Shown: positions 1,507 to 24,966 of the stretch, piece by piece
How positions within the stretch are numbered: the stretch's first letter is position 1
How the letters are laid out: the number at the start of each line of letters is the position of its first letter
Virus record (IMG/VR): IMGVR_UViG_3300049893_002320
Location: 1 to 38,495 of that record
Length of the DNA: 38,495 bases
DNA from: a virus
Reading direction: 5' to 3' (one strand)
Translations under genes and position numbers: made by a program
The notes under the pieces: model-generated
The model's input: only the letters and a program-made list of their open reading frames with translations
Told to the model about the DNA's origin: nothing
Databases searched by the model: none

Positions 1507-1773
1507 TTATTTTTTTAAAACTGCGTTGACTAACTTCAAAGCCGCCTCAAGGGAAGACTTGGCGAGAGCTTGGGCCTCCTCAGCGGACAAGTCTTTCAAT
1601 TCGTCATCGATGAAATCGCTACCGTCTAAAGCTCTTTTTGCAGCTCCTACCACGGGAGCGAATTTTGGCAAATCAAACCAGCTTACAACTCCGTCCCTTT
1701 TTGCTTCAATTAAACAATCCGCCAAACTTCCTACTAGCGCCACTAGCTCCAAACTTTCTTTAATGTCCGCCAT
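1507..1773 (-). CDS. Small hypothetical protein (88 aa), helical, acidic
   Basis: The ORF begins MADIKESLELVALVG with a GGAGAA ribosome-binding site about nine bases upstream. It is predicted mostly helical, with an Ala/Leu-rich C-terminal helix (EEAQALAKSSLEAALKLVNAV). It sits between the second Acb2-like gene and the large hub gene in the same late transcript, 14 bases after the former. No motif was recognised. The helical character and place in the operon could fit a small virion or accessory protein, but this cannot be decided from sequence. Confidence 0.75.
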   Translation of the reverse strand: MADIKESLELVALVGSLADCLIEAKRDGVVSWFDLPKFAPVVGAAKRALDGSDFIDDELKDLSAEEAQALAKSSLEAALKLVNAVLKK

Positions 1774-1786
1774 CGAAAAAATTCTC

Positions 1787-2125
1787 CTACAATTGATTTG
1801 TCCCCTCGACGCCTCTAGTTTCTCGGTCCTTTTTTCTGCTTTTTAAGTACCCTATAGCGCATGTTAAATGACCAATTACATAATCATTATCCTGGCATGG
1901 GTACTTTAGATTTAATCCTTCAATAATTAATCTTGCCGCCTCTATCAGAGTATCAACCTGGCAGCCGTTGACGCCTACTTCTTTGATTGGGCCGTTTTGA
2001 ATTCTGAAACAGATAGAATTTACATCGTCATTGATTTCTATCATATTGGGTGGATATCGGCTTTTAATTCTAATTACGGAAAACCCATCAATTTCATTGA
2101 TATCTTTCAATGTTTCTAGCGCCAA
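1787..2125 (-). CDS. Divergent Acb2/Tad1-hairpin-like protein, second copy (112 aa)
   Basis: Residues 43-54 read QNGPIKEVGVNG, and the C-terminus carries a Cys-x-x-Asn element at 77-80 followed by a helix ending KKDRETRGVEGT. This layout (GPIKE-GVNG, then C-x-N...L..A..L..R...R..RGVEG) matches a widespread phage small-protein family that I associate with the Acb2/Tad1 hairpin domain, whose characterised members bind cyclic-nucleotide immune signals (anti-CBASS). The usual LEEA segment is LTCA here, so binding function is uncertain. The start is a TTG just after the upstream stop (TAAgTTG) with AAGGG upstream; no ATG is available. It is the last gene of a four-gene block in which a small membrane protein and an Acb2-like protein occur twice. 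The family link is from memory of sequence patterns. Confidence 0.55.
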   Translation of the reverse strand: MALETLKDINEIDGFSVIRIKSRYPPNMIEINDDVNSICFRIQNGPIKEVGVNGCQVDTLIEAARLIIEGLNLKYPCQDNDYVIGHLTCAIGYLKSRKKDRETRGVEGTNQL

Positions 2126-2126
2126 C

Positions 2127-2339
2127 TTACTGCCCTTTAAAAATGAATTTACATTGATCGATGCTATAGGATTTTAAACATTCCTCTCGCATAAACCTAG
2201 ATTGTTGAAAGTATTTGTCGTTAGATTCTTTTTGTTTTTGTTTTTCCTTGATTAATATTCCACCTATATAAGCCATCGATAAGATGAATGCTAAGATTCC
2301 CAACGGAAAAATTAATTTTTCATAATTTTCAGAAATCAC
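2127..2339 (-). CDS. Small single-span membrane protein with paired C-terminal cysteines, copy B (70 aa)
   Basis: It has a GTG start overlapping the preceding stop (GTGA). One hydrophobic segment lies at about residues 10-31 (LIFPLGILAFILSMAYIGGI), followed by a charged linker (KEKQKQKES) and a C-terminal element with two cysteines, ECLKSYSIDQCKFIFK. The same C-terminal pattern occurs in the 51-residue product at 2542-2697, so the two are paralogues. The cysteine spacing suggests an intramolecular disulphide if the C-terminus is periplasmic. A spanin-like role or a role tied to the adjacent Acb2-like proteins are both possible. No family was recognised. Confidence 0.78.
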   Translation of the reverse strand: MISENYEKLIFPLGILAFILSMAYIGGILIKEKQKQKESNDKYFQQSRFMREECLKSYSIDQCKFIFKGQ

Positions 2340-2545
2340 GTTTTATTTTTCCTATCTAATAGATCAGAGCGAATTGCCTTGCCAATCCACATGTAGGCTT
2401 CCTCTAAAGCCGTATATGCTAAAGACTTTTCTCGACTTGGCGACAATTGATCAATTTCATTTTCCACGTTGGTAACTAACCTTTTGAACTCTTGTTGAAT
2501 CATTTCCGCCTTTTCATCCCAAGCTAAGTAATCAAATCGACTCAT
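2336..2545 (-). CDS. Acb2/Tad1 hairpin-domain-like protein, candidate cyclic-nucleotide sponge (69 aa)
   Basis: Residues 37-50 read SREKSLAYTALEEA and continue with MW and AIR. This is the signature helix of the phage Acb2-type family (REKSLA-T-LEEA..W...AI), of which T4 Vs.4 and Pseudomonas-phage Acb2 are known members that sequester CBASS cyclic oligonucleotides. The rest is an acidic N-terminal helix (residues 7-33), giving the expected two-helix hairpin in a protein of typical short length. The ATG overlaps the TGA of the upstream membrane-protein gene (ATGA), and the end overlaps the next membrane-protein gene (GTGA), so the block is translationally coupled. The domain call is by eye; binding activity is inferred. 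Confidence 0.66.
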   Translation of the reverse strand: MSRFDYLAWDEKAEMIQQEFKRLVTNVENEIDQLSPSREKSLAYTALEEAYMWIGKAIRSDLLDRKNKT

Positions 2546-2697
2546 TTAAAAACCCATTCGCATTGTTCAATAGTTTTATTGCTGTTTAAACAATCCATCT
2601 TTTTTTTTACATTGTGAAAATGCACTGTTGAAATCAAAAAAATTATAAAAATTACAAACGCTAACATTGTTATTCCAACTTGAAAAAAATCATTCAA
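2542..2697 (-). CDS. Small single-span membrane protein with paired C-terminal cysteines, copy A (51 aa)
   Basis: This is a short gene with a TTG start at 2697 that overlaps the TGA of the upstream gene and has GGAGG six bases upstream. An internal ATG at 2667 would give 41 residues. The product is MNDFFQVGIT, then a membrane segment at residues 11-27 (MLAFVIFIIFLISTVHF), then KKKMDCLNSNKTIEQCEWVFK-like sequence with cysteines at 36 and 46. Its C-terminus aligns with the copy at 2127-2339 with one gap ([DE]CL.S..[ST]I[ED]QC.[WF][VI]FK). The stop overlaps the ATG of the Acb2-like gene (ATGA). Function unknown. Confidence 0.72.
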   Translation of the reverse strand: MNDFFQVGITMLAFVIFIIFLISTVHFHNVKKKMDCLNSNKTIEQCEWVFK

Positions 2698-3482
2698 AAC
2701 GCGCCTCCAAGTGGCTTGCTCATGGCTTTGCCGATAAGATCAAATGCGGCTTGGGTCGTTTCTGCGTGTTCTTGAATCTCATTAGCTAAAATATGAGCTG
2801 CCAGGGCTTCAGAAACGCTAGGGGCGTATACACCTCCGCCTTTTTCTTTAATTCTCTGCCATTCTGCCACTAGGTTATTGTAGGTATTTTTCAATGCCCG
2901 CTTTACCCTTGCGTCGGCTTTTTCCCTTGTAACTGAGATTTGTGATTGAATGCTTTTGGCCATTGTTTCATATCGTTCTTGCATTTTCTTGGCGGAAAAT
3001 CCTTTGTTTAACATTGTGATTAGCTCCGCCGTCATATCGATATTGACCTCTATGGCTACAACGCCGTAAATGTCAGTTTCCTCCCCGGCTCCGTCCTCTC
3101 CGCCACATAACCAATGGACTAGCGGCGTGATCTCATCAAGAGTTACCTCACGCGTATTCTGGGGTGGTAATAGGGTACTACAATGGATAGGGGTATTATG
3201 TTGCAAAACTACCCCACCAACGGCCCGAGGTATCCTGATTTCAAATGTTGCTTCGGGAGCTGTTAAAAGAGCGGGATCTTTTAAGCATTTCCTGCCCCAT
3301 TCCGGCGTAAATAGCTTAGTCAATGGGCTTGCCTGTATTAAATACTGGGGAGCCCAAATCATTTGCTTGGGTAGTTGAAAAGCCGCCTGTATTGCTGGAT
3401 TGCCCCGCTTGTCTAGTGCCTGTTGAACTGCGGGATTTTTGAAATTTAAAGCGCCTTCAAAATTTTCTTTGCCCACTTCCAT
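2694..3482 (-). CDS. Hypothetical protein (262 aa) with coiled-coil C-terminal half
   Basis: The N-terminal half (about residues 30-150) is compact and mixed, with several prolines and the beta-type segment TFEIRIPRAVGGVVLQHNTP. The C-terminal half is a long Lys/Glu/Arg-rich helix (SAKKMQERYETMAKSIQSQ onward) likely to form a coiled coil, ending in a Gly-containing tail. It follows the adaptor and a 161-residue gene in the late unit and overlaps the start of the small membrane gene by a TTGA. A virion or assembly role is likely from position. No family was recognised. Confidence 0.8.
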   Translation of the reverse strand: MEVGKENFEGALNFKNPAVQQALDKRGNPAIQAAFQLPKQMIWAPQYLIQASPLTKLFTPEWGRKCLKDPALLTAPEATFEIRIPRAVGGVVLQHNTPIHCSTLLPPQNTREVTLDEITPLVHWLCGGEDGAGEETDIYGVVAIEVNIDMTAELITMLNKGFSAKKMQERYETMAKSIQSQISVTREKADARVKRALKNTYNNLVAEWQRIKEKGGGVYAPSVSEALAAHILANEIQEHAETTQAAFDLIGKAMSKPLGGAF

Positions 3483-15204: not shown

Positions 15205-15663
15205 ATGATTTTACTAAAACTATTGGCCCAAACTGCGCTAGCTAGCACCGTTCCCGTGGAGCCGATTCCCCCCAGCGAAGAGACCGCATTGAATACAATT
15301 GCAGACGATCTTTTGCGGGAAGTCAACAAAGCGCGAGTCGCAAAGGGCTTGCCATTTTTATTCAAATGGGAGCCGTTGACTTGTGCTGCAAGTATGCAAA
15401 ATAATTATATCAAATTGACAAACAGATGTGACCATGACCGGATCAATGGGGTACGAAAAAGGCTGCAAAGTTGCGGGGGGACTTATGGGGGAGCAGGTGA
15501 AATTATAGCCTGTGGGCATGTTACAGCCAAAGATGCAGTCAATGCATGGCTTAAAAGTCCGCAGCATGAGAGAATTATGATGGACCCGAGCTATAATGTA
15601 TTTGGGGCTACAGCATACGCGGGATCTTATGTTGTCGTATTTGGGGAGTTTAAAAGCGAATGA
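15205..15663 (+). CDS. Secreted CAP-superfamily protein 2 (152 aa)
   Basis: A Sec signal peptide (MILLKLLAQTALA) is followed by an acidic linker and a CAP domain. The domain includes LLREVNKARVAKGLPFLFKW (helix 1), NNYIKLTNRCDHDRINGVRK with a candidate His, GEIIACGHVTAKDAVNAWLK, SPQHERIMMDPSYNVFGATA and the final strand YVVVFGEFKSE. The CAP signatures 'W..SP.H...I..P.Y...G' and the closing strands are clear. GAGG precedes the ATG by seven bases. It overlaps the next gene by ATGA. A phage-encoded secreted CAP pair is uncommon. Possible roles are cell-wall access, lysis or surface modification; none can be decided. Confidence 0.78.
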   Translation: MILLKLLAQTALASTVPVEPIPPSEETALNTIADDLLREVNKARVAKGLPFLFKWEPLTCAASMQNNYIKLTNRCDHDRINGVRKRLQSCGGTYGGAGEIIACGHVTAKDAVNAWLKSPQHERIMMDPSYNVFGATAYAGSYVVVFGEFKSE

Positions 15664-21315: not shown

Positions 21316-21618
21316 ATGTCAGCAGAGTGGGAATTAGACAAATCAATAGGTGACATATTCGAAGAATGTAAAATCAAATTTGGAAAACCAAAAAACCAAA
21401 CTTTGAATTGCATAAAATCTATTTTTTTAAAGGGATCTAAAATCGAAAGACATAGATTAAAAACAACACTTGAACGATGCGCTGCTTATGGAGACTGGAT
21501 ACAAGCCGATAATTTGTCCGAATTGTACAAAGAATTAGATCCCATTCTTGCTGGGGCTGGGATTTCAACAAAACTCTCTATGTTAAGTCCGAACGATGAG
21601 CTGCCCGGAAAAAAATGA
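21316..21618 (+). CDS. Small hypothetical protein coupled to DUF1874 (100 aa)
   Basis: The ATG follows the DUF1874 stop directly (TAAATG). The product is helical and charged with three cysteines (IFEECKIKFGKPKNQTLNCI; RHRLKTTLERCAAYGDWIQA). No family was recognised. Being the sole partner of the candidate ring nuclease in a dedicated two-gene unit, it is a good candidate for a second counter-defence factor. Its 3' end overlaps the end of the leftward tail-fibre gene by 36 bases. Confidence 0.72.
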   Translation: MSAEWELDKSIGDIFEECKIKFGKPKNQTLNCIKSIFLKGSKIERHRLKTTLERCAAYGDWIQADNLSELYKELDPILAGAGISTKLSMLSPNDELPGKK

Positions 21619-24600
21619 TCGTTTTGTTTGTACATCGTCGGTCAGCAAACTAACATTGTGTGTCCCCGAAGTGCTTTCTATTGCATCATAGACGCTAATT
21701 GTGTCGCCAGTAGAAAGTGAAACATCGACAGAAAATGAGGTTGTGTTGTTAGTAGCAATACCAGTCATAACTTGTCGGTGCATTAGAGTGCCGCTATTTG
21801 TGTTTTTATAAATATACATATTCACGGCGTCGGAAGCTACTAAGCCGTTGTACCAAACTGCAATCACTGTAAATCGGTATATGCCGTTATATGGGGCTGT
21901 AAATACACCAGACGAAAAGTTATTAGCATTGTCATATGCTTCCGTATCCCAGGCGATCAAAATTTGAGTAGGTGATGCGCTAGCGGACCGCGTTATAGTT
22001 GCGTTTCTCGATGCGAAAAAAGCTGGTGTCGGAGTGATCGGCTGAGATGTCAAAGTTTTTACCCCTGCAATTGTCTGGGTGCCTGTCGTGATTGCGCCTC
22101 TGGCTGTTGCGCTGGCGTCTGGCAAATTGAGGGTTATGGTGCCCGCGCTGTGAGCCACGGCAAAATCAGTCCCGCTAGTGCCCGTAGTAACTGTTTTTGC
22201 TTCCATCCCGCTTGCGGCATTGTTGACGCCATAGACTTTGTTGGCGTTGCCACTAAATGCTGTGCTTTGCAAACTAGTTCCATCGCTCGATACCGCTCCG
22301 GCTGTAACCGGTACAGTCGCGGCGTTGGACCAGCCTAAATTTGCTGATCCGTCCGTACTTAAAACTTGGCCAGATGTGCCGTCACCGTTAGGCAACGAAA
22401 ATGTGGTGCTTGTAGTGACGCCAACTGGAGCCCGCAAACCAATGTATTTTGATTCGTTTCCGTTTTGTGTATCCTGTAGTTTTAAAGTATTTTCGGGCGA
22501 TCCCGAGCCTGCGCCGTCAATATAAGTGCCTAGTATTAAATTGTGAGTATCGCCAGCTAGTCTATAATAGTTGGCGTTTTCAGAACTAGGGGCACTGCCT
22601 GAACCAAACACGAAATCGCCGTCCGCGGCTGTTAATGCACCTGTGCCAAAAGCATAGGAGCCGGTGTGTGCAGCCGTATTATCGGCCCCCCCAAGAGTTA
22701 CAGCTTTTTGTGCCGTGGCATAGTTGTTCGCTCCGCCGAGTGCCATAGCAAAATCTTGGCTAGCTTTATTTTGTGCGCCAATAACTACAGACACCCCGCC
22801 GCTAGCGACTTCATCGGCGTTAGCTCGATACCACTGTAAATCAAGGGCGTAACTCCCGCGAGCATTCCCGCCCGCCGGGGTAGAATCTGGTATCTGGGCA
22901 GAAATCGCACCCGAGCCGTTTGGCGTTATGTAAATATTACCGTTTGTTGTCGAAGTCTTGAGCTGACCGTTTAGAACGTCAATAGACCCACCTTCGACTT
23001 GCAGAACGCTTGAGGCGTCAGAAACATAATCAGATGACCCGGCAGTACCCCCAATTTTTATGTTTTTTGCGAACCAGTTTTCGGAAGTTGTCGAAGATCC
23101 GTAAAATCCCCAGGATCGCGTCGCGGGATCTCCGAAGGGCAAATCTGCCTTGATCAATTTAAGCGAGTTGATCGTATGGGTGCCGCCCTGGGGTATGACC
23201 GTAAATCGACCAGCAGCAAGCTCGTCAACTGTTCCCCCTGAGCTTGTCGGGTCGAGAGATACGGCAAAAACTGACGCGTTGACGTGATCAATTGAGCTTC
23301 CCGTTTCAGTTTTTAAAACAGCGGGTAGGGCTAACGCCGCAAGTCCCAGGCCAAACGGTCCGCTTGTATTGATTGAATTAGTAGAGATTGTCATCAAAGA
23401 GGCAGTGTTGACGCCTATTGTATCGACATTTGCGGTAGTCGTATTTGGGGCTGTAGTTACACCGCTAACAAGCCCATGAACACCGTTAGGATTTCCGCCC
23501 TGATCAACGGGGGTTATGCCGGTAAAGGCATTTAATTTTCCATTTATCGAAACATCGCCTTGCGTCTGTATCGCAAAAGTTTGATCTGCCGTGAAATTTG
23601 TTAAATTTGAGGCGTCAAAATATCCTGCCACAGCGTAGCCGGAGCCGTCACCGGCGACCATTGGAGTAACATTGACCCCTTTATAGCCGTCAGTAACAAG
23701 GGGCAAATTTGGGTGTATATTTAAATCGGTCCAATATGGCGTTGAAACGCTAGCAGTACCGCCAGTGTCGATGATCTGCACCCCGTTAGTAACGGTCCCA
23801 ATATTGGGGTTGATGTTCAAACCAAAATAAGAGTTTGTGCTAGTGATATTTGGTGTTGCATTAAAACTGGTGTAACCATTAGTTGCGTTATCAGTCAAAT
23901 TCATAAAATCAGCAAAGATCGTGACGCCGTTAGTTGTACCGACGTTGCCTCCCGCTGAAAATACTTTGTAAGAATTTGATACAGTGCCAGCAATGTTAGA
24001 ATTGCTCCCAAAACCCTGATAATCTTGGATATTGTTAAAATTGAAATTTAAATTGTGACCGTTAAAACTGCCGTTGATGTCATTTGCGTTTCCGCCAATA
24101 TTTGACCCAAAAAGATTAGTAATCGTCCCCGTTGAATTTAAATTACCATTTAAAAATGACAGGGTATTGATACTCGAAGATGTGCCCACATTTACATTTG
24201 ACTGGTATATGTTATTTTGATTTTGAGCAATTGAACCATCAGACACCGAAAAAACGCTTGAAAAGCTTGTGTAATTGTTGCTGGCTACCGTATCGACGCC
24301 ATTACCGATTTGCGTATTTTGTTGATATCCGGCAACGTCCCCTACGTCGCTTTTGTTGCGGCTATTAACATTTAATTGCATCCCAATTAATTGGCCCGAC
24401 CCGTCAGCACTAAAACTATTGCCAGAATCGTCAGACCCGACATTGATTTCAGATTGATTCTGAATCCAGCTTGATCCCGTCACGTTTGTAGTCGGATTCA
24501 AACTAGAGCCATAAGTATGTAAATTTTGATAGCCTTCGCCAGTCGTTGGGACTACTGCAAGCTGTACATTTGCCCCGGCTGTTGTTGCGTTATAATTCCA

Positions 24601-24966
24601 ACCTGGGATCTCTGAGATTGCGCCGCTGCCGTCAAAACCCGCAAACGTGTGAGGAAAGCCTATAATCAAGCTGGCAGGGTCGGCCCAAGCTGTTACGCCC
24701 GCCCCATCAGTTTTAAGTACATAGTTATTAGTACCGGCGTCAATTGGGAGCGTCCACAACCAGCTCGATGCCAAAGATGCGCTCGGTATAATTGTGATTG
24801 CTGGAGTGCCCGTTGCGTCTTTATCGAGCTTCAAACCTTTAGCTTCGAGTCCCAAGTTTGTTAAGCTTTTTGCCCATTGGCCAAACCAGATAATTGGCGC
24901 ATCTGCATAAAGATTGGCAGGGTTGTATAAAAATACAGCCATTAGCAAAATGAGCAAATTTCTCAT
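21583..24966 (-). CDS. Tail fibre/receptor-binding protein with signal peptide, YadA-like head repeats and C1q-like C-terminus (1127 aa)
   Basis: Residues 1-21 form a convincing Sec signal peptide (MRNLLILLMAVFLYNPANLYA). A long Asn/Ser/Gly/Thr-rich beta region follows, with repeated elements of the form NGxxIxxx (about 160-470). Residues around 755-805 show trimeric-adhesin head repeats (ALGGANNYATAQKAVTLGG; GSYAFGTGALTAADGDFVFG). The last 130 residues resemble a C1q/TNF-like trimeric domain (FTAPYNGIYRFTVIAVWYNG to the final SFFSGQLIV). Such modules form trimeric receptor-binding fibres. A signal peptide on a phage fibre is unexpected, because tails assemble in the cytoplasm. It is last in the leftward late unit. 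An alternative is a surface adhesin displayed by the infected cell. Confidence 0.8.
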   Translation of the reverse strand: MRNLLILLMAVFLYNPANLYADAPIIWFGQWAKSLTNLGLEAKGLKLDKDATGTPAITIIPSASLASSWLWTLPIDAGTNNYVLKTDGAGVTAWADPASLIIGFPHTFAGFDGSGAISEIPGWNYNATTAGANVQLAVVPTTGEGYQNLHTYGSSLNPTTNVTGSSWIQNQSEINVGSDDSGNSFSADGSGQLIGMQLNVNSRNKSDVGDVAGYQQNTQIGNGVDTVASNNYTSFSSVFSVSDGSIAQNQNNIYQSNVNVGTSSSINTLSFLNGNLNSTGTITNLFGSNIGGNANDINGSFNGHNLNFNFNNIQDYQGFGSNSNIAGTVSNSYKVFSAGGNVGTTNGVTIFADFMNLTDNATNGYTSFNATPNITSTNSYFGLNINPNIGTVTNGVQIIDTGGTASVSTPYWTDLNIHPNLPLVTDGYKGVNVTPMVAGDGSGYAVAGYFDASNLTNFTADQTFAIQTQGDVSINGKLNAFTGITPVDQGGNPNGVHGLVSGVTTAPNTTTANVDTIGVNTASLMTISTNSINTSGPFGLGLAALALPAVLKTETGSSIDHVNASVFAVSLDPTSSGGTVDELAAGRFTVIPQGGTHTINSLKLIKADLPFGDPATRSWGFYGSSTTSENWFAKNIKIGGTAGSSDYVSDASSVLQVEGGSIDVLNGQLKTSTTNGNIYITPNGSGAISAQIPDSTPAGGNARGSYALDLQWYRANADEVASGGVSVVIGAQNKASQDFAMALGGANNYATAQKAVTLGGADNTAAHTGSYAFGTGALTAADGDFVFGSGSAPSSENANYYRLAGDTHNLILGTYIDGAGSGSPENTLKLQDTQNGNESKYIGLRAPVGVTTSTTFSLPNGDGTSGQVLSTDGSANLGWSNAATVPVTAGAVSSDGTSLQSTAFSGNANKVYGVNNAASGMEAKTVTTGTSGTDFAVAHSAGTITLNLPDASATARGAITTGTQTIAGVKTLTSQPITPTPAFFASRNATITRSASASPTQILIAWDTEAYDNANNFSSGVFTAPYNGIYRFTVIAVWYNGLVASDAVNMYIYKNTNSGTLMHRQVMTGIATNNTTSFSVDVSLSTGDTISVYDAIESTSGTHNVSLLTDDVQTKRSFFSGQLIVRT

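Follow-up and report, generated by a model that had tools for sequence, protein, structure and literature searches.

The window, which is the whole 38,495-base stretch of a virus contig from an uncultured phage, carries on its minus strand a block of four small genes encoding two predicted membrane proteins, here called memA and memB, and two sponges. In order of transcription, the block and its flanking genes are:

2694..3482, minus strand: 262-aa conserved gene, directly upstream of the block and hence its border; the homologue in MW202458.1 lies after the terminase, with gene order kept
2542..2697, minus strand: memA, 51-aa ORF, predicted single-pass membrane protein, tail DCLNSNKTIEQCEWVFK
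2336..2545, minus strand: Acb2-family sponge, 69-aa ORF, PF24729 match
2127..2339, minus strand: memB, 70-aa ORF, predicted single-pass membrane protein, tail ECLKSYSIDQCKFIFK
1787..2125, minus strand: Tad1-family sponge, 112-aa ORF, TTG start
1507..1773, minus strand: 88-aa gene following the block; its weak homologue in MW202458.1 lies elsewhere, at 3119-3385 (27% identity, E 4e-5)

A sequence-only reading had placed four ORFs at these coordinates on the minus strand, joined by ATGA and GTGA overlaps and then by a 1-base gap before the fourth gene, and this layout was confirmed. The same reading took the sponge gene to be duplicated in tandem, which proved wrong: the 69-aa protein is Acb2 and the 112-aa protein is Tad1. 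The block thus consists of two different sponges, each preceded by a small membrane gene encoding a cysteine pair. The start codons of the block genes are plausible; the memA TTG has GGAGG 6 nt upstream, and the Tad1 TTG is consistent with the MALET N-terminus of the relatives in an alignment of 21 sequences. The stop codon of the Acb2 gene (2336-2545) overlaps the memB start.

As the stop codon of the 262-aa gene (2694-3482) overlaps the TTG of memA, the block belongs to a longer operon, and that operon includes the terminase large subunit. A syntenic relative, phage ctKpZ937 (MW202458.1; capsid 53%, terminase 48%), keeps homologues of the next three genes after terminase in the same order (terminase-216-168-197 aa) and has two other small genes at the site corresponding to the block. 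A search for Acb2 and Tad1 across the MW202458.1 genome gave no match. Given the absence of the sponges despite the kept preceding gene, the block looks like accessory cargo, gained by insertion or replacement. Elsewhere in the window, the plus-strand gene at 15205-15663 encodes a CAP (cysteine-rich secretory protein) domain, with a score of 35.4 bits that exceeds the Pfam cut-off, and the minus-strand gene at 21583-24966 encodes a 1127-aa protein, the C-terminus of which weakly matches the C1q domain, just below the cut-off.

Two sponges of different families

The first sponge had been read as Acb2-like, and the Pfam hairpin profile upheld this: the 69-aa protein matched PF24729 (Acb2/Tad1 hairpin) with 43.3 bits against a gathering cut-off of 27. 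Like Acb2 (anti-CBASS 2; T4 Vs.4, PaMx33 gp24), the protein has this hairpin together with the conserved N-terminal RFDY and the LEEAYMWIGKAIR core. A profile of 13 relatives matched Acb2 homolog 43 (E 0.0011), which is the best-matching solved relative and was solved with 3'cADPR. The model of the 69-aa protein is a two-helix hairpin (pLDDT 91.7) with structural Z scores of 7.2 for T4 Vs.4 and 6.8 for homolog 43, values that unrelated helical hairpins equal. Because the two-helix hairpin is too common a shape, the fold search does not discriminate, and Foldseek with this model returned no significant match. Judged by its sequence, the 69-aa protein is a member of the Acb2 family. Unlike its close relatives, it is short and lacks the C-terminal tail with a near-invariant arginine that almost all of the 35 close relatives keep, which makes it one of the very few tail-less proteins among 36 aligned sequences. 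The tail is a subgroup trait that lies outside the Pfam definition of Acb2, and the ligand range of a variant without it may differ.

The second sponge had been described as a divergent Acb2-like protein that could bind a different signal. Divergent it is, but the Acb2 identity did not hold, as the protein is another known sponge, Tad1 (Thoeris anti-defence 1). Searched as a single sequence with phmmer, the 112-aa protein matched the solved CmTad1 (8kbb) with E 9.8e-8, and in a profile search the match to CmTad1 had an E value of 3.2e-16; on these matches its assignment as a second Acb2 was rejected. Since Acb2 and Tad1 have just the hairpin in common, the 112-aa protein is no duplicated Acb2. 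A Pfam search with it gave no match. The protein has the conserved NGPIKE.GVNGCQ and R..R.VEG tail of Tad1, and its model (pLDDT 80.7) combines N-terminal strands with a C-terminal hairpin, which is the Tad1 fold seen in CmTad1 and CbTad1 (7uav). In VIA-align comparisons with the model the top six rows were all Tad1 (Z 6.0-6.7), the overlap being mostly hairpin and the Z scores just about 1 above those of unrelated hairpins; Foldseek alone gave no significant match. The sequence matches place the 112-aa protein in the Tad1 family. The suggestion of a different signal was right in kind, since gcADPR, in addition to the nucleotides of CBASS, is a reported ligand of the Tad1 family, and cyclic oligonucleotides are sequestered by both the Acb2 and Tad1 families (PMC12043709). 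The Tad1 gene of the window follows Acb2 in one coupled block; the papers found describe neither an Acb2-Tad1 operon nor a membrane partner of either sponge.

Small predicted membrane proteins with paired cysteines

The membrane topology given here is predicted from hydropathy only, which shows a single strongly hydrophobic segment in memA (2.7) and another in memB (2.4). Read by eye, both sequences have positive charges after this segment, which suggests that the tails are cytoplasmic. The tail cysteines are separated by nine residues in memA and eight in memB. The sequence-only reading had proposed a motif common to both proteins; it fits memA and misses memB because the cysteine spacing is one residue off. 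The likeness of the two tails is nevertheless beyond chance, as it was reached by just 2 of 20,000 shuffles. For both proteins the Pfam and NCBIfam scores stayed well below the cut-offs, PADLOC gave nothing and PHROGs gave weak matches only. A tblastn search with memB found no relative in IMG/VR and only weak, unrelated matches in INPHARED, and a search of 12 sponge-bearing contigs, including the one designated L051, gave no match, an empty answer that is uninformative. We regard memA and memB as undescribed proteins and candidate sponge partners.

The earlier idea for such a partnership was that memA and memB anchor the sponges at the inner membrane and so raise their concentration close to effectors that act there. 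In its favor, a membrane gene immediately precedes each sponge gene and is coupled to it, and the charges after the hydrophobic stretch point to a cytoplasmic tail. The neighbours of sponge genes in other contigs, described below, speak against anchoring, and we hold it to be unlikely.

Neighbours of sponge genes in other phages

In five other contigs (L005/L036, L015, L029, L063 and L144), Tad1 comes after Acb2 on the same strand. A small membrane ORF lies between the two genes in L005 and in L015, where it is not certain to be a gene, and Tad1 follows directly in the other three. In L037, Acb2 is flanked on either side by small membrane ORFs. The clear recurrence of the cysteine tail, seen once, is in L051, where a protein with the memB-like tail ECLKSRPIEIC is encoded 4 nt after Acb2. 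No similarity between the L051 phage and the window was detected in capsid or terminase, although such empty answers are weak evidence, and the L051 protein itself gave weak matches only in INPHARED. A genome-collection search for Acb2 gave one locus. Three DNA patterns modelled on memA, memB and the L051 gene matched 19, 65 and 67 stretches in IMG/VR, partly common to the sets. In the first set the only small membrane protein was that of L051, and in the other two sets three ORFs passed a loose filter, none of them convincing by eye. As the patterns were shaped on these three genes, the result shows the rarity of the motif more than a link to Acb2.

Two further observations were made in these contigs. 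At L030:315-623 a second, divergent Tad1-like ORF (25.5 bits with the Tad1 profile) overlaps the end of the Tad1 gene, a possible Tad1 tandem. Proteins of 115-124 aa are encoded upstream of Acb2 or Tad1 at L036:3627-4001, L007:3266-3634 and L023:3346-3693 and have a common HD-type stretch (HDWAYH, HDILYH and HDAMYY); the L036 protein had no match in Pfam.

Neighbours were counted for 38 Acb2 and 72 Tad1 genes outside the window and for 532 control genes from the same contigs (507 in the cysteine-pair recount). Four settings of distance and hydropathy were used, none giving a significant enrichment. Under two of them a small membrane ORF adjoined 8 of the 38 Acb2 genes (p 0.09-0.14), 8-10 of the 72 Tad1 genes (p 0.5-0.6) and 63-71 of the 532 controls, and a different setting gave 8/38, 9/72 and 48/532. 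About 9-13% of control genes have such a neighbour. A general pairing of sponges with membrane proteins, as had been proposed, is therefore not borne out: most Acb2 and Tad1 genes lack such a neighbour and the generic rate is near background. What stands of the dedicated partner is the memB-like cysteine protein that adjoins Acb2 in L051.

The recount considered ORFs with a cysteine pair after the hydrophobic stretch, at six spacings and in three distance windows. Such an ORF adjoined Acb2 in 1/38 cases versus 0/507 controls at 8-9, the spacing found in the window itself (p 0.07), 2/38 versus 1/507 at 7-10 (p 0.014), 2/38 versus 2/507 at both 5-10 and 5-11 (p 0.026), 3/38 versus 3/507 at 4-12 (p 0.005) and 4/38 versus 6/507 at 4-24 (p 0.003), where one gene, that of L085, enters the count through its lipobox cysteine only. 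The L015 ORF, too, is an uncertain gene. The excess beside Acb2 has the same direction at all six spacings; what to ask, which distance window to use and which spacing to allow were all decided post hoc, and the p values are uncorrected for the variants tried. These counts supersede an earlier one at the 4-24 spacing (4/38 versus 9/532, p 0.008), in which some sponge neighbours were among the controls. Tad1 neighbours showed no consistent excess. The cysteine-pair association with Acb2 is suggestive only, a lead rather than a demonstrated association.

These data speak against anchoring: outside the window, the majority of sponge genes have no such partner; Tad1 is without a consistent excess of cysteine partners, and in L051 the membrane gene comes after Acb2 and no Tad1 was seen in the examined stretch. 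They also bear on a second alternative, in which the sponges are a counter-defence pair, whereas memA and memB have nothing to do with them and are small phage membrane proteins of another purpose (superinfection exclusion or lysis timing, for instance) that share a cargo site. The membrane-neighbour rate, not significantly different from that of the controls, and the weak excess at the window's own spacing fit unrelated neighbours, whereas the occurrence of the cysteine tail twice in the block and again beside Acb2 in another phage does not. We consider unrelated neighbours a serious contender that falls somewhat short of probable, and about as likely as proteins that hinder membrane effectors.

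A proposed counter-defence block and its possible mechanism

Our tentative best explanation, one we lean on without counting it probable, is a four-gene counter-defence cargo block in which the sponges capture signals while memA and memB take part in that conflict at the membrane. That the sponge part of this explanation is correct we hold with high confidence. Coupled translation would make Acb2 and Tad1 together. Both would sequester the cyclic di- and trinucleotides of CBASS, and Tad1 would also sequester the gcADPR of Thoeris. The predicted single-pass proteins memA and memB would sit in the inner membrane, with their tails and CX8-9C pairs probably in the cytoplasm. As co-cargo they would most likely hinder membrane-pore effectors, such as Cap15 or Panoptes OptE/2TMbeta, and these would be effectors that the sponges can themselves unleash. 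Acb2 and some Tad1 proteins trigger membrane killing by Panoptes, the OptE effector of which breaks the inner membrane once the decoy nucleotide is removed (PMC12657218, PMC12657230). Panoptes (OptS/OptE, mCpol-2TMbeta), in which removal of the decoy by a sponge releases the effector, and Cap15 are thus hypothetical targets of memA and memB; both are host defences and no relatives of these proteins. The broader proposal that memA and memB represent a cysteine-pair family that shields phages with sponges against effectors acting on the membrane, among them Panoptes triggered by sponges, is more doubtful still than anchoring.

The sponges are of known types and the arrangement is new. As Panoptes punishes phages that carry sponges (PMC12657218, PMC12657230), one may ask how a phage can afford two, a question for which the recurring Acb2-Tad1 tandem, sometimes with a membrane gene between, provides concrete genes for testing. 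If memA and memB do shield against effectors triggered by the sponges, they would constitute a further layer of counter-defence.
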